Assembly (NCBI GenBank): GCA_945787335.1
Contig: CALZHR010000172.1
Location: 1-42,019, forward strand
Direction: 5' to 3'
From: an uncultured Desulfuromonadales bacterium
Lineage (GTDB): Bacteria; Desulfobacterota; Desulfuromonadia; Desulfuromonadales; Geopsychrobacteraceae
DNA: 42,019 bases
Part shown: positions 14,400-21,321 of the stretch, in pieces
How the letters are laid out: every line of letters starts with the position of its first letter
Position numbering within the stretch: the first letter of the stretch is position 1
Notes under the pieces: model-generated
The model's input: only the letters and a program-made list of their open reading frames with translations
The model's database searches: none
What the model was told of the DNA's origin: nothing
Made by a program: the position numbers and the translations under genes

Positions 14400-14546
14400 G
14401 CCCTAGTCCTCTCCTTTCTTCATTTCGAAACCACCCCGCTCCTCAGCAGAAAAACCCTCAAATGCCCATTGTTCATTAAGACGGCTGTGCTAAACTACGC
14501 CCATTCCTTGTTTATCCCAATCGCTGACCGAGACTGGAGAATTGCC

Positions 14547-15128
14547 ATGAATATCCGCTTGCTGTTAATCCTGCTTCTCGCCGCGCTGCTCATGAGCAGC
14601 TGCGGCTACAACACCCTCCAGCAGAATGAAGAAGCGGTCTTCGCCGCCTGGGGGGATGTCGAAGCGACCTACCAGCGCCGCGCCGACCTGATCCCCAACC
14701 TGGTCGAGACGGTCAAGGCCTACGCCGCCCACGAGCGGGAGACGCTGACCGAGGTGACCAACGCCCGGGCCAAGGTCGGGCAGATGACTATCTCCGCCGA
14801 CAAGCTCGGCGACCCGGCCCTGCTCCAGCAGTTCCAACAGGCGCAGGGGCAACTCTCCAGCGCCCTGTCACGGCTGATGGTGGTGGTCGAACGCTACCCT
14901 GATCTGAAAGCGAATCAGAACTTCCTCGACCTGCAGCATCAGCTGGAAGGGACCGAGAACCGCATCAACGTCGCCCGCCAGCGCTACAACGGCGCGGTAC
15001 AGACCTTCAACAGCTCGATCCGCACCTTCCCGAACAGCCTGACCAACAAGTTCCTGCTGCATCTCGAGCGCAAGGAACCGTTCAAGGCTGAAGCCGGCGC
15101 CGCCCAGGCCCCGAAGGTTTCCTTCTGA
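14547..15128 (+). CDS. lemA: LemA family protein
   Basis: A 193-residue LemA-family protein: a short N-terminal hydrophobic segment ending in a lipobox-like MSSC (C19), then a long alpha-helical domain. Family blocks are [34 protein letters not shown] (about 20-53), the NARAK helix and [20 protein letters not shown]. It is probably an envelope protein exposed outside the inner membrane. Its function is unknown, but it is very often encoded beside TPM-domain proteins, as here. ATG 14547 has GGAGA at 14535-14539 and its stop overlaps the next ATG by one base, so the two are coupled. Confidence 0.92.
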
Positions 15129-15859
15129 TGCGGATATTTTTCGCCGGGGTGCTGCTTCTGCTGTTTTTTTCCAGCGCCCCGGCGGCCCTTGATGTGCCAC
15201 CGGTCACCGGCTACGTCAACGACCGGGCCGGGTTGCTTTCGCAGTCTACGCTGCTGAAGCTGGAACAGTTCCTGCGCGAGTTTGAAAAGAGCGACTCGAC
15301 CCAGATCGTCGTGTTGACCATCCCGACCCTCGATGGCGAGGTGCTCGAAGAATACGCCCTGCGGGTGTTGGAGAGCTGGGGCGTGGGGCAGAAGGAGCAG
15401 GATAACGGCGCGCTGCTGCTGCTGGCCAAGCAGGAACGCAAAATCCGTATCGAGGTCGGCTACGGCCTGGAGGGGCGGCTGACCGACCTGCTGGCCGGCC
15501 GGATCATCGACAATGAGATCAGCCCGCGCCTGAAGCAGGGCGACTTTGACGGCGGCGTGATCTCCGGAGTGGTCGCCATGGCCGAAGCGGTGCGCGGCGA
15601 ATACCAGGGGACCGGCAGCACGAAAAAGAAGAAAAAGCGCTTCGACCCGTTCGGGCTGATCATTCTGTTCTTTTTCTTCGGCCCGCTCCTGGCCCGCCTC
15701 AGCGGCCGACGGAGCAGACGTTCACGCCGTGGCGGCATCTTCATCGGCGGTCCGCCCTTTGGTGGGGGCGGCGGTTACGGCGGCGGGGGTGGATTTGGCG
15801 GCGGCTTCGGTGGTGGGGGCGGCGGCGGAGGAGGCGGTGGTGCTTCCGGAGGCTGGTAA
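15128..15859 (+). CDS. TPM domain protein (YgcG family) with Gly-rich tail
   Basis: A 243-residue secreted or membrane-tethered protein: signal peptide (about 1-21, ending SSAPAA), TPM domain (about 28-150, with DRAGLLSQ, DSTQIVVLTIPTLDG, GALLLLAKQERKIRIEVGYG and LTDLLAGRIID), a basic linker, one membrane helix (about 176-194), and a C-terminal tail from about residue 207 made almost only of Gly with Tyr, Phe and a final Trp. This is the normal YgcG/TPM_phosphatase layout. The domain is thought to be a phosphatase-like or scaffold module facing the periplasm. Coupling with lemA suggests a complex. Confidence 0.88.
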   Translation: MRIFFAGVLLLLFFSSAPAALDVPPVTGYVNDRAGLLSQSTLLKLEQFLREFEKSDSTQIVVLTIPTLDGEVLEEYALRVLESWGVGQKEQDNGALLLLAKQERKIRIEVGYGLEGRLTDLLAGRIIDNEISPRLKQGDFDGGVISGVVAMAEAVRGEYQGTGSTKKKKKRFDPFGLIILFFFFGPLLARLSGRRSRRSRRGGIFIGGPPFGGGGGYGGGGGFGGGFGGGGGGGGGGGASGGW

Positions 15860-15925
15860 GGATGAAACTAAATTTCCCCACGGAAAAAACGCTGCGCGGG
15901 CCAGATAACCGGCATGAGGTCGTAA

Positions 15926-16555
15926 ATGAAACCAGCAAGTGAGTTCTTCACCGCTGAAGAGCAGCAGAAAATCATAGCGGCGGTCAAGGCGGCCGAAGAG
16001 AAAACCAGCGGCGAGATCGTGCCGATGGTGGTCGATTCCTCTTACGACTACCCGCGTGCCGAGCTGATCGGCGCCGGCAGCCTGGCGCTGGCGATCGGTC
16101 TGATGGCCAGCTGGATGTTTGGCGGTGACTCGATCTGGGTCTTCCTGCCGACCTTTGTTCTCTGTTATCTTCTTTTGCAGCAGCTGATCCGCCGGTTTCC
16201 GGATCTCAAGCGCAAGCTGATCCATCCGGATGAACTGACCACCGAAGTCAAAGAGAAGGCGATGGTCAGCTTTCTGGAGCTGGGCCTGCACGAAACCCGC
16301 GACCGGACCGGCATCCTGATCCTGATTTCGCTCTTCGAGCACCGGGTGCAGGTGCTGGCCGACAGCGGCATCAACGAGCAGGTCCCGGAACAGACCTGGG
16401 ACGAGATTGTCGCCATGATCGTCGCCGGAATAAAATCGAACGACGCCGGCACGGCCGTCTGCCGGGCGGTGGAGCGCTGTGGCGAGCTGCTGGCCTCGCA
16501 CCTGCCGGTCAAGAACGACGACAGTGATGAATTGCCGAACCTGATTCTGGAATAA
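15926..16555 (+). CDS. Second TPM domain protein
   Basis: A 209-residue paralogue-like TPM protein without a signal peptide. It begins with the TPM N-terminal motif (EFFTAEEQQKIIAAVKAAEEKTSGEIV, about 6-32), then two membrane helices (about 47-85), and resumes with the second half of the domain (about 95-190, RTGILILISLFEHRVQVLAD). The split of a TPM domain by a helical hairpin is known in this family. GAGG at 15916-15919 precedes the ATG. It lies 66 bases after the first TPM gene, which completes the common LemA-TPM-TPM arrangement. Confidence 0.85.
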   Translation: MKPASEFFTAEEQQKIIAAVKAAEEKTSGEIVPMVVDSSYDYPRAELIGAGSLALAIGLMASWMFGGDSIWVFLPTFVLCYLLLQQLIRRFPDLKRKLIHPDELTTEVKEKAMVSFLELGLHETRDRTGILILISLFEHRVQVLADSGINEQVPEQTWDEIVAMIVAGIKSNDAGTAVCRAVERCGELLASHLPVKNDDSDELPNLILE

Positions 16556-17053: not shown

Positions 17054-17758
17054 CTATTCGACCAGCTCCTTAAGGGTCTCCGCCAGCTCCTGCTGGACCT
17101 GCGCCCAGAGCTCGCCGCCAGCCTGCGGCAGCGACTGATTCACTTCGACCTCGACCCCCAGATACTGTGCTTCCGGCAGCTCCTGCCGCAGCGCCGTCAC
17201 CAGCCCGTCGCTGGTTCCCCGGTACGGAGCGTTGCGGCGGATGCGCAGCTGCGGCAGCGCCACCTGCAGCTGCTGCTGCCAGAGGCTGCAGAGCTCGCTT
17301 TCGCCGGTTCGCGCCGGATCGTAGAGCAGGCCGATATCGACCTGTCGCTCGCGGCCGTCAAGAACCGGGACAAAGCTGTGCAGCGACAGGTGGATGACCG
17401 CGCCGTCTCTGGAAATCTGTTTCTGCAGTTTTTGGCGCATCTGCCGCCGGTAGGGTCCGTAATAACTGGAGAGGATCTGCTCCCGTTCGCTCTTAGGCAG
17501 CCGGCGGGTCAGCTCGGAAAACAGCTTCAAGTGCCCCTCCGAGCGGTTCAGGTCGATCAGCAGCCGGCTGATCTCCGAAACCACCAGCGGCGCGTTCAGC
17601 CGGCGGGCGAAGTCGCGGGCCAGCGGCAGCACGCCGATATCGTAGCCACGGTGGCTCACCAGCAACGCCTCGGCTCCAGCAAACAGCAGCCGGTACTCCG
17701 CCGGCACCCGGTTGCCGCCATGCTCACAGCTGATCAGAAACGCCGGTCGCTCAAGCAT
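17054..17758 (-). CDS. N-formylglutamate amidohydrolase family protein
   Basis: A 234-residue zinc-dependent amidohydrolase of the N-formylglutamate deformylase family (COG3741-like). Visible motifs are LISCEHGGNRVP near the N-terminus, a SHRGYDIG stretch, SRLLIDLNRS, HLSLHSFVPVLDG and LGVEVEVNQ. His and Glu in the SCEHGG and LHSF blocks are probable zinc ligands. No other histidine-degradation genes are nearby, so a role in histidine catabolism is unlikely. It is the last gene of a four-gene overlapping operon and its start lies eight bases inside the GCS2 gene. It probably hydrolyses an amide made, or removed, by the two ligases upstream; this is inference. Confidence 0.87.
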   Translation of the reverse strand: MLERPAFLISCEHGGNRVPAEYRLLFAGAEALLVSHRGYDIGVLPLARDFARRLNAPLVVSEISRLLIDLNRSEGHLKLFSELTRRLPKSEREQILSSYYGPYRRQMRQKLQKQISRDGAVIHLSLHSFVPVLDGRERQVDIGLLYDPARTGESELCSLWQQQLQVALPQLRIRRNAPYRGTSDGLVTALRQELPEAQYLGVEVEVNQSLPQAGGELWAQVQQELAETLKELVE

Positions 17759-18974
17759 CGAACATCCTCCCTGCGGCCAGACAAACGGCCAGCTGCTGAT
17801 AGACCTCGGCCAGCTGCGGCCGGGTCGGCTTCGTCCCCAACGCCCGCAGCAGCCGCCGCGCCAGCGGACCCTTTTCGAGGATCAGCTGCAGCGGCTCACC
17901 GAGCCGACTGCCGAACAGCGTCTCGGCCAGATGTTGCCAGAGCTCGGAAACGGTGGCGCTGCGTCCCGGGAAACCGAACAGATCGAGATAGTCGCTGTCC
18001 GCGATCAGCACCCGCTCCCCCTTGATGACCACCCGGTTGTAGAGGTTGGCCAGCGGCGTCTCGCTGCAGCGCTTCTGCTCGGCCGTCTCGCTCCAGCGCT
18101 GCTCGACCAGCGCCTGCAGCAGGGCGATGATCAGCTCGGCGATGGCGACATCGGCCGCCGGGCACTCCTGCAGGTCGAGCAGGCGGATTTCAATGGTATT
18201 GCGCTCGAAGCGGGCGATCGCCCCGCGCGAGTTGAGCCACTCCTCCTGCAGGATCCCCTCCGGATCCTGGGGCGCGATGGCCCGGTAGATCGGCTGGAGG
18301 ATCTTCTTCTGGTAGGCCTCGGCGGTAAAGGCTCCTTCCGGAATGACCTGCCCGGTAATCTGCGGGATGACCCGCTGATTGCTGCGGTAGACCTGCAGAC
18401 GGGTGTCCAGGACGCCGCTGATGCGACCGTCGACCAGCGGTGAGCTGGCCGCCAGCGCCGGCAGCAGCGGCAGCGCCAGGCGGATCGCGGCGTGCAGCCG
18501 GCCGAACTCCTCATCACCCCAGAACGGCAGGTTGATGTGGGCGCTCTGCAGGTTCGACCAGCCGTGCCCGCGGCAGCCGAAGATCCGGTTGTAGGCAGCG
18601 TAGATCGGCCCGTTGTCGTGCGGCCAGAGGCGGGTCTGGCTGGCCGGATCGAACCAGGGGTGCATCGCCCCCGGCAGCAGCTGACCGCCCGCGTCCGACA
18701 ACAACGCGTTGACCTGCGCCACCCCCTGCTGAAAAATCTCCGTCAGCCCGGCGGTCGAGGCGGCCGGACCGTTGGTCTTCAGCTCCAGCACATGCAGCAC
18801 CAGCTCGTTCGACCAGCGCAGCGGGCCGACCTCCACCTCGTTGGTCAGCTCGCCGGCCTGCGCGGTCAGAATCCGATCGGCGATCGGCAAAACGTCGAGG
18901 CTGTTGGAGTCGACGATCATGTACTCCAGTTCCAGGCCGACCCCCTCGAACAGGTGCAGCGGCGCGCAGCTCAT
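17751..18974 (-). CDS. Glutamate-cysteine ligase-like (GCS2 family) enzyme
   Basis: A 407-residue carboxylate-amine ligase of the GCS2/COG2170 type, which makes ATP-dependent gamma-glutamyl amide bonds. The family signature is at the N-terminus (GVGLELEYMIVD, about 12-23), followed by TNEVEVGPLRWSNELVLHVLELKTNGP with acidic metal ligands. GAMHPWFDP, GWSNLQSAHINLPFWGDEEF and the late RNTIEIRLLDLQECP strand also fit. It need not be true glutathione synthesis: no glutathione synthetase accompanies it, while a RimK-type ligase does. Start and preceding stop overlap (ATGA at 18971-18974). The physiological acceptor is unknown. Confidence 0.88.
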   Translation of the reverse strand: MSCAPLHLFEGVGLELEYMIVDSNSLDVLPIADRILTAQAGELTNEVEVGPLRWSNELVLHVLELKTNGPAASTAGLTEIFQQGVAQVNALLSDAGGQLLPGAMHPWFDPASQTRLWPHDNGPIYAAYNRIFGCRGHGWSNLQSAHINLPFWGDEEFGRLHAAIRLALPLLPALAASSPLVDGRISGVLDTRLQVYRSNQRVIPQITGQVIPEGAFTAEAYQKKILQPIYRAIAPQDPEGILQEEWLNSRGAIARFERNTIEIRLLDLQECPAADVAIAELIIALLQALVEQRWSETAEQKRCSETPLANLYNRVVIKGERVLIADSDYLDLFGFPGRSATVSELWQHLAETLFGSRLGEPLQLILEKGPLARRLLRALGTKPTRPQLAEVYQQLAVCLAAGRMFDA

Positions 18975-20449
18975 GAGCGCCCCCCCTTCTTCGCTTCGAC
19001 CCGACGCATCAGCTCCTGCATGATCCCCAGGTACAGCTTCTCCTTCAACACGGCATCCTCCACCCCGCTGTCGAGACTCGGGTTATCGTTCACCTCGATG
19101 ACAAAAACCTTGCGCCCGACCTGCTTCAGGTCGACCCCGTAGAGGCCGTCGCCGATCAGGTTGGCGGCTTTGAGCGCGGCCCGCAGCACCGGCTTGGGGA
19201 CCTCGTCGAGCGGCAGGGTGTCGGCCTCCCCTTCGGTTTTCTGGCCGTCGGTCTCGCGCTTGAGGATCTGCCAGTGCTGCTTGGCCATGTAGTAGCGGCA
19301 GGCGTAGAGCGGCTGCCGGTTGAAGATGCCGACCCGCCAGTCGAAGTCGGTCGGCATGAACTCCTGGCCGATGATCAGCTCCGATTTCTGCAGCAGCTGC
19401 GCGACCGCCTGCTGAAACTCGCCTTCCGTCTCCGCCTTGACCACCCCTTGCGAAAAGGAGCTGTCCGGCTGCTTGAGGATGCAGGGCAGCCCGAGCTGCG
19501 GCAGCACCTGCCCGAGGTTGCCGCGATGAATCACCAGCGAGCGCGGCGCCGCCACCCCGTGGCGCTCGAGCAGTTCGGCGAGGAACACCTTGTTGGTGCA
19601 TTTGAGGATCGACTCGGGGTCGTCGATCACCACCAGCCCCTCGGCGGCGGCGCGCCTTGCGAAGCGGTAGGTGTGATGGTTGACGTTGGTCGTCTCGCGG
19701 ATGAACAGGGCGTCGAACTCGGCCAGCCGGCCGATGTCCTCCCGCCCGATCAGCTCGGTGCTGAAACCGATCTGCTCCGCGGCCCGGCAGAACTGTTTGA
19801 GAGCCCTGGCGTCGGAGGGCGGATCACTCTCCCGCGGGTTGACCAGGATCGCCAGGTCGTAGCGGGAGTGCGGCTTGCGCGCCAGCCGCTGCCGCCGCCC
19901 CTGGAAATACTCGCGGGCCATCTGCTCGGCGAACTCGCGGTGCTCCGCAAGAATACTGCCGGCCGCCAAGGGCGCCACCGATTGCAGTCCCCAACGCCCC
20001 TCCTTGCGGCCCTGAACGAAGCGCGCCTGCAGAAAGGGCGACTGGAACTGCTTGAACAGCCGCAGGCTGAGCCGGTCGTAGCGCCGTGCCAGGTTGCGGC
20101 CGAAGTAGATGCTGAGGACAAACTCGGTCGAGCGGATCGGCTTAAGCGATTTCTGGATCAGCTCATCGAGCTCTTCGGAGACCAGCCGCACGATGCTCTG
20201 CGACTTCAGATCCTGCAGCGCCCCGACCGTCGGCAGCGGCTTGTGGCCGCGCGCCGCCGCCAGCAGCGAGACGTAGTAGCCGGTGCTCTGGTAGCGGTAG
20301 GAGCGGCAGAGGTTGAACAGGTGCACGCCGCGCAGCGCGACAAAGCGCGGGTCGGTCAGATAGGCGCGGGCGGCGACCAGCTCGACCCCCGGCAGCTGCA
20401 GCGGCCAGGACGCGGGGTCGTCAACGACAACGAGAGACAGTGTTGCCAT
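18971..20449 (-). CDS. RimK-type ATP-grasp ligase with N-terminal RLAN-like domain
   Basis: A 492-residue ATP-grasp enzyme. The N-terminal half (about 1-190) resembles the domain found fused to RimK-like ligases (HLFNLCRSYRYQSTGYYVSLLAAARG). The C-terminal half is a RimK/glutathione-synthetase-type ATP-grasp fold (about 200-480) with KCTNKVFLAELLERHGV, CILKQPDSSFSQGVVK for ATP binding, and VIEVNDNPSLDSGVED carrying the metal-binding Glu and Asn. RimK-type enzymes add Glu or other amino acids to a carboxylate. The gene overlaps the C39-like gene upstream by 29 bases and the GCS2 gene downstream by four, so all are translationally coupled. Confidence 0.88.
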   Translation of the reverse strand: MATLSLVVVDDPASWPLQLPGVELVAARAYLTDPRFVALRGVHLFNLCRSYRYQSTGYYVSLLAAARGHKPLPTVGALQDLKSQSIVRLVSEELDELIQKSLKPIRSTEFVLSIYFGRNLARRYDRLSLRLFKQFQSPFLQARFVQGRKEGRWGLQSVAPLAAGSILAEHREFAEQMAREYFQGRRQRLARKPHSRYDLAILVNPRESDPPSDARALKQFCRAAEQIGFSTELIGREDIGRLAEFDALFIRETTNVNHHTYRFARRAAAEGLVVIDDPESILKCTNKVFLAELLERHGVAAPRSLVIHRGNLGQVLPQLGLPCILKQPDSSFSQGVVKAETEGEFQQAVAQLLQKSELIIGQEFMPTDFDWRVGIFNRQPLYACRYYMAKQHWQILKRETDGQKTEGEADTLPLDEVPKPVLRAALKAANLIGDGLYGVDLKQVGRKVFVIEVNDNPSLDSGVEDAVLKEKLYLGIMQELMRRVEAKKGGRS

Positions 20450-21164
20450 GCAAACGGGACTTTCTTCCGGGACGGATAATCAGCAGGTTGGCATCGTAGG
20501 TCAAAACACCGAGCAGAATCGCATTGATAGCCCGATGAATGTCGACAGCGTAGATCTGGGTTTCGGCAACCGGGTTGGGGAGCAGCGGGTCGGCCACTGA
20601 AATGGTTTTCTGATTGCGATCGTAACCGCAGAGCACGACGAAGTGACCGGTCGGCTCACCGCGGACATCGTCATAATCGCAGTTGTCACCGAACTCGCGG
20701 GGGGTCTGATAGAGGTAGGTTGAGCTCAGGCCGGTAATCAACGGAGCTGACTGAGCCACATACTTGCGCAGCAGCGCCGGGGTCAGGTCGGCAAACTTGA
20801 GCTCGCCGCCCAACTCTAAAAAGCGCAGAAAACCTTCGCTCGCCCTTTGTAGTTTCGGATCGGTCTTGACCAGCATCTGGGCGCGCAGCTTTCCTGCCAG
20901 GTCGGGAAAGCCCGGCTGCAGCCAGGTCGGGTCGAAGATCTGCAGCTTGTAGGTGTAAATGGTCGCCTGGTAGCCGCGCTCCAGGGCATGGCAGGCCAGC
21001 AGCACCGCCAGCGTGCCCCCCTCTTCGAGCATCGGCACCTCGGCAATCACTTGTTCGAGCGGCAGCTGCTCGCCGTAATACTGATAGATTGAATGCAGGC
21101 AGGTCGGTCCGCAGGTGGTGTCGTCGGGTTGAGGCAGAATCCGGTACGGAAGCTGTCGTTCCAT
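20421..21164 (-). CDS. C39/papain-like peptidase of the amidoligase operon
   Basis: A 247-residue soluble protein with a C39-like cysteine peptidase layout. The N-terminal block QPDDTTCGPTCL contains Q12 and the predicted nucleophile C18. H174 in TGHFVVLCGYD and D192 in ISVADPL complete the triad. There is no membrane or ABC domain, so it is a free-standing enzyme. The ATG at 21164 (AAGGG nine bases upstream) is preferred over a GTG at 21191. It leads an operon with RimK-type, GCS2-type and formylglutamate-hydrolase genes. It could cut a peptide that the ligases then modify, or remove their product; the substrate is unknown. Confidence 0.8.
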   Translation of the reverse strand: MERQLPYRILPQPDDTTCGPTCLHSIYQYYGEQLPLEQVIAEVPMLEEGGTLAVLLACHALERGYQATIYTYKLQIFDPTWLQPGFPDLAGKLRAQMLVKTDPKLQRASEGFLRFLELGGELKFADLTPALLRKYVAQSAPLITGLSSTYLYQTPREFGDNCDYDDVRGEPTGHFVVLCGYDRNQKTISVADPLLPNPVAETQIYAVDIHRAINAILLGVLTYDANLLIIRPGRKSRLHGNTVSRCR

Positions 21165-21280: not shown

Positions 21281-21321
21281 AAGCGAAATCCGCAGCAGCG
21301 GAAAAATAAATAGCAGAGGGC

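Follow-up and report, generated by a model that had tools for sequence, protein, structure and literature searches.

A widespread, uncharacterised amidoligase cassette with two ligases and a C39-like cysteine enzyme in a Desulfuromonadales bacterium

The window, that is the whole stretch of 42,019 nucleotides analysed here from an uncultured Desulfuromonadales bacterium, has four overlapping genes on the minus strand. They encode a C39-like papain-fold cysteine enzyme (20421..21164, 247 aa from the ATG), an RLAN-RimK ATP-grasp ligase, in which RLAN is fused to a RimK-like part (18971..20449, 492 aa), a GCS2-type ligase with the YbdK/glutamate-cysteine-ligase fold (17751..18974, 407 aa) and an amidohydrolase of the FGase family (PF05013; 17054..17758, 234 aa), which is a facultative fourth gene. 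The four reading frames of the preliminary description were all recovered from the ORFs of the window, with overlaps of exactly 29, 4 and 8 bases. The two short overlaps are seen again in most relatives. These overlaps argue strongly for the predicted joint production of all four gene products. The longest frame of the C39-like gene begins at TTG 21191, and the ATG at 21164 is backed by the aligned starts of relatives. Upstream of the operon lies a HIGH_NTase1-family gene, and a weak terminator-like hairpin in between (21289..21302, minus strand) suggests that the two are separate transcription units, with the hairpin being a consensus match of a kind that is no more frequent than in shuffled sequences. 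Elsewhere in the window, at 14469-16555, a LemA gene is followed by two TPM-domain genes, which is a common bacterial arrangement.

The C39-like enzyme is a member of Pfam family Peptidase_C39_2 (PF13529; 6.9e-10, 40.1 bits against a gathering score of 24) and contains the catalytic triad of the family. C18, H174, D192 and Q12 are invariant in 18 C39-like sequences of the same order. In 64 C39-like sequences from many phyla, C18, H174 and Q12 are invariant and D192 is at least 90% conserved. The triad C18/H174/D192, described before as intact, is thus conserved in both alignments, and Q12 is probably the oxyanion-hole residue. No N-terminal signal peptide is apparent in this enzyme, and the catalytic cysteine lies 18 residues from the start. 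All 64 members match C39_2, and the nearby families in sequence are DUF3335 and GUCD1-type proteins, which are treated together with C39_2 in a published classification (PMC10318531). At an E-value of 0.01, none of the 64 members matched the phytochelatin synthase family (C83, PF05023).

The structural model of the C39-like enzyme (pLDDT 91.6) fits phytochelatin synthase Alr0975 (Z 18.2, rmsd 2.4, 161 residues, 11% identity) and the C39 domain of ComA (Z 18.2, rmsd 1.8, 135 residues) with the same score. What it shares with Alr0975 (C83) and with the C39 domains of ComA and PCAT1, at a Z of about 18 each, is the papain fold and the Cys-His-Asp triad. In contrast to the C39 domains, it is free-standing, its Cys-to-His region is longer, and no ABC transporter is fused to it or conserved nearby. 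Because the model fits phytochelatin synthase and the C39 protease domains equally well, the enzyme may transfer rather than only cut. The earlier name "peptidase" is right for the C39-like fold and the intact catalytic residues, but this tie in fold leaves room for a transferase.

The second protein matches both RLAN (PF14401; 1e-44, 152.3 bits against a gathering score of 25) and RimK (PF08443; 1.5e-8, 34.9 bits against 21) in Pfam. With RLAN placed N-terminal to the RimK ATP-grasp domain and intact metal residues, it belongs to the RLAN-RimK ligases. D440, E452 and N454, which we take to be the metal ligands, are invariant in 21 RLAN-RimK sequences, as is K326. By sequence its relatives are RimK and LysX, and the NCBIfam model for RimK alpha-L-glutamate ligase (TIGR00768) gives 62.2 bits against a cut-off of 143.4. 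To our knowledge, the RLAN domain is absent from RimK.

The third protein is a GCS2 family member (PF04107; 4.6e-27, 95.6 bits against a gathering score of 21) with the conserved metal-binding Glu residues, and G13-x-E15-x-E17, E57, E64 and R264 are invariant in 58 GCS2 sequences. Its model (pLDDT 94.7) matches YbdK (Z 38), plant glutamate-cysteine ligase (Z 34), and PafA and Dop (about 20). It shares the whole-chain fold, the GCS2 Pfam family and the G-x-E-x-E motif with YbdK and the plant-type ligase. In contrast, identity to them is only 13-16%, and the protein falls under every NCBIfam equivalog cut-off of the family, including those for the YbdK subfamily (TIGR02050, 51 versus 176.4 bits) and GshA (TIGR02048, 37 versus 249 bits). 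A lectin, the only result when the PDB was searched with a GCS2 profile, was dismissed as spurious after the fold search. Elsewhere, the host genome contains a separate plant-type GshA-like gene (TIGR01436, 393.7 bits, below the cut-off of 463) and GshB-like ATP-grasp matches. Since there is this separate plant-type GshA, the operon GCS2 is not the glutathione enzyme of the genome, and the operon is independent of the host GshA. Ordinary glutathione synthesis, named earlier as a finding that would count against the interpretation, is not the role of the operon.

The fourth protein belongs to the FGase family (PF05013; 2.3e-29, 103.5 bits against a Pfam gathering score of 28.9), and its closest solved relative is Atu2144 (PDB 2odf, 1.5e-36). 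The earlier annotation as N-formylglutamate amidohydrolase holds at the level of this family, which HutG and Atu2144 share, but not for HutG itself, because the HutG model (TIGR02017) gives only 29 bits against an equivalog cut-off of 278.75. Moreover, the gene is linked to ligases and not to hut genes. It encodes the only FGase of the host genome, which is about 81% complete, so that absences weigh less than presences, and HutH was not found in this genome. Ordinary histidine breakdown, also named earlier as a finding that would count against the interpretation, is an unlikely role of the operon. The NCBIfam models for characterised enzymes (HutG, GshA, YbdK and RimK) thus all score far under their cut-offs, and therefore none of the four proteins should be named as a characterised enzyme.

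The distribution of the genes was determined in 98 relatives from the genus, the family and the order of the host. An RLAN domain was found in 21 of them, and 18 of these 21 keep the gene order C39, RLAN-RimK, GCS2. The operon-type C39, RLAN-RimK and GCS2 genes occur in the identical 18 genomes, and none of the three was found in the other 80. Consistently, profile searches with the operon C39 and GCS2 gave strong matches in exactly those 18 genomes. The sole weak C39 match had an E-value of 7e-4; one weak GCS2 match was the GshA-type protein of the host genome, and the others look alike. Even in the host genus the core is limited to 2 of 10 genomes, so the distribution is patchy. The count of 18 in 98 is not a probability, because the genomes are related, and this point is answered by a wider set.

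In the wider scan, which used one genome per species, the C39-like protein had at least 535 relatives, and the best 80 loci were analysed. Among these 80, 71 have the full core, 6 are ended by a contig edge and 3 are without a core gene despite room, so that all three genes stand together in 71 of 74 assessable loci. Among the matches listed, the core occurs in Thermodesulfobacteriota, Nitrospirota, Planctomycetota, Spirochaetota, Balneolota, Rhodothermota, Bacteroidota, Pseudomonadota, Verrucomicrobiota, Fibrobacterota, Bdellovibrionota and others, more than ten phyla in total. Blastopirellula marina DSM 3645 and Tautonia sociabilis are cultured hosts of the core. Pairwise protein distances correlate with r 0.53 to 0.65, higher than in every shuffle, which is what joint inheritance of the genes would produce. 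Phyla are mixed in the ligase tree, where Balneolota, for instance, group with Marivirga and Spirochaetota, and this tree by itself suggests horizontal spread.

Some loci are arranged differently. In three planctomycete loci (L080, L081 and L119) the C39-like gene is present, in two of them with the ligase, and GCS2 is not nearby despite room. In one of the 71 loci (L116:8989-13085) the C39-like gene faces the FGase-GCS2-RimK genes on the opposite strand. A 9-kb record of plasmid 27 of Legionella adelaidensis (L144) has RLAN-RimK, GCS2 and FGase without an adjoining C39-like gene, and dapF lies upstream.

The FGase gene is less closely tied to the core. In the best 80 of the at least 535 loci, it adjoins the core in 40 and is absent despite room in 26 of 66 assessable ones, and therefore it is not essential everywhere. 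It was found in all 18 operon genomes of the order, with one copy cut by a contig end and another (G058) on a different contig from the core, in trans, and in 27 of the 31 genomes of the phylum that have the operon or its RimK-GCS2 part. Among the 80 operon-free relatives, 6 carry the complete gene and two carry fragments of it, which indicates that FGase also serves elsewhere. Three of seven FGase-subfamily copies apart from the operon adjoin a gene for a di-haem cytochrome c peroxidase of the MauG type (L148, L153 and L154), a position that gave no hint of the substrate.

These results indicate that the conserved co-occurrence expected for such an operon is real, in the all-or-none pattern of the relatives (18 of 98) as well as in 71 of the 74 assessable loci among the best 80 of at least 535. 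The earlier description as a four-gene amidoligase operon is correct in that the amidoligase operon is conserved, but its unit is an obligate three-gene core plus a facultative FGase. The conserved neighbourhood of amidoligases with a peptidase places it among the amidoligase peptide-synthesis clusters. Clusters of amidoligases with peptidases were reportedly predicted as a kind by Iyer et al. in 2009. No description of this operon was found in the open literature searched, and an earlier prediction of the cluster is possible. Since the core is all-or-none in 98 relatives and extends over more than ten phyla, the three genes almost certainly form a real, uncharacterised pathway, and its product is probably a small peptide.

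Conserved partners were also looked for around the core. Apart from C39, RLAN-RimK, GCS2 and the facultative FGase, no further conserved neighbour was found, and the commonest families in the best 80 of the at least 535 loci are generic ones such as response regulators and histidine kinases, in at most 4 of 78 loci. The look for conserved partners in other genomes that was proposed earlier thus leads to these genes and to no further one. No conserved small peptide was found upstream of the C39-like gene, where the sole matches came from a near-identical genome pair, and no conserved exporter or ribosomal precursor was found near core loci. PADLOC gave no match to defence proteins. With no conserved neighbour or upstream peptide, the operon looks self-contained and cytosolic, without a linked ribosomal precursor. 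A large MscS-type channel gene directly follows FGase in one operon genome (L029:8907-11360) and in one operon-free genome (L149:7811-10276); the mechanosensitive channel was considered as a partner and rejected, since it was seen in few loci and did not hold across the wide set.

RLAN-RimK ligases outside the operon fall on other branches of the tree, and the GCS2-paired ligases group together on one side (support 90/80). In four loci (L145:3763-6467, L157:3704-5650, L039:6701-8710 and L158:3729-5760) the RLAN-RimK ligase is paired with a GNAT and not with GCS2. In two genomes (G281 and G074) the GNAT is fused to the ligase, and in another (G247) its gene overlaps the ligase gene. The Azospirillum ligase lies behind a GNAT-DUF3335 fusion; the second half of this fusion is itself a C39-like domain and stands directly upstream of the ligase. 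These systems therefore share the RLAN-RimK ligase with the operon, and in Azospirillum also a C39-like domain, but have a GNAT where the operon has GCS2 and FGase. Because the GNAT is fused to, adjoins or overlaps RLAN-RimK, it occupies the position of the operon's GCS2. The partner would then determine which acyl group comes first (gamma-glutamyl or acetyl), and this group would be extended by RLAN-RimK. A SET-domain gene (L039:8722-9354) stands after one GNAT-RLAN-RimK fusion, and a homologue is also found beside the ligase in L042.

In the best explanation, to which we give about an even chance, the operon is a self-contained cytosolic two-ligase pathway for a short non-ribosomal peptide or amide of the gamma-glutamyl type, with the C39-like enzyme responsible for its turnover or elongation. 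GCS2 would convert a carboxylate, of which the gamma-carboxyl of glutamate is the most likely, into an acyl-phosphate and couple it to an amine. RLAN-RimK would add one or several further amino acids at the carboxyl end. The C39-like enzyme would take up the ligase product through a Cys18 acyl-enzyme, and either hydrolyse it or pass the acyl part to another amine, comparable to phytochelatin synthase with glutathione. FGase, where present, would strip an N-acyl group and so recycle or trim the product. We infer the order of these steps, glutamate as the substrate and the part played by cutting or transfer, and the earlier proposal that the operon builds and removes a gamma-glutamyl amide has the same standing. 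The two ligase folds, GCS2 (YbdK and plant GCL) and RimK/LysX-related, support such a pathway, and the missing conserved precursor, exporter or partner fits a small cytosolic metabolite. On the other side, RimK-type ligases also modify proteins, and the target need not be operon-linked; the modelled GCS2 fold also resembles PafA and Dop, at a lower Z of about 20; and the match to phytochelatin synthase is one of fold only, at 11% identity.

Tagging of a protein or peptide encoded elsewhere is a possible but clearly minor alternative. RLAN-RimK would extend a protein C terminus, GCS2 would add a gamma-linked residue and the C39-like enzyme would mature or untag the target. The ligase is a RimK homologue, and RimK itself acts on ribosomal protein S6. 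In Pseudomonas, a RimK-type ligase for S6 modification is genetically paired with a protease, RimB (PMC12239564), which parallels the pairing found here, but RimB is an aspartic protease and that system lacks a GCS2. The GNAT of the sister systems also comes near the cut-off for RimI (85.2 against 86.4 bits), which acetylates a ribosomal protein. However, there is no conserved substrate gene nearby, a distribution as patchy as 18 of 98 relatives would be unusual if a core protein were modified, and GCS2 is structurally closer to small-molecule ligases than to PafA or Dop.

A more specific form of the two-ligase pathway is speculative and rather improbable: the C39-like enzyme would act as a transpeptidase and build or remodel an oligomer produced by GCS2 and RLAN-RimK, in parallel to glutathione and phytochelatin and beside glutathione, with the GNAT-type RLAN systems as the acetyl-capped counterpart. 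A glutathione-like system for a low-molecular-weight thiol is unlikely. Here GCS2 would make a gamma-Glu dipeptide, RLAN-RimK would add the third residue and the C39-like enzyme would form phytochelatin-like metal-binding oligomers, for which the tie in fold with phytochelatin synthase and the closeness of GCS2 to plant glutamate-cysteine ligase speak. But the host already has its plant-type GshA and GshB-like matches, the commonest neighbours of the best 80 of at least 535 loci include no recurrent metal-resistance family, and by Pfam the C39-like proteins are C39_2 in 64 of 64 cases and never phytochelatin synthase.

Ordinary catabolism, with a HutG-like FGase in an operon for the breakdown or recycling of amino compounds of the N-acyl or gamma-glutamyl kind, is very unlikely: FGase membership and a hydrolase and a peptidase within one operon fit it, but the HutG score of 29 against 278.75 bits, the lack of a HutH match in the 81%-complete genome, and the conservation of two ATP-consuming ligases beside an optional hydrolase do not. 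Maturation of a RiPP or secreted peptide, with leader removal by the C39-like enzyme and modification by the ligases, has the least chance: C39 domains do cut double-glycine leaders and ATP-grasp enzymes modify graspetides (PMC8939145), but no conserved precursor ORF or ABC exporter lies within reach.

The amidoligase cassette is real and widespread, and it is uncharacterised. A three-enzyme unit that the relatives searched have either complete or not at all, and that is found in more than ten phyla, must have a specific function, and it points to a metabolite or modification for which the open literature searched has no name. With genes this few, contiguous and soluble-looking, expression of the cassette in a laboratory host is a way to look for the product. 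A comparison is built in, as the same kind of ligase stands beside GCS2 in one system and beside a GNAT in the other.
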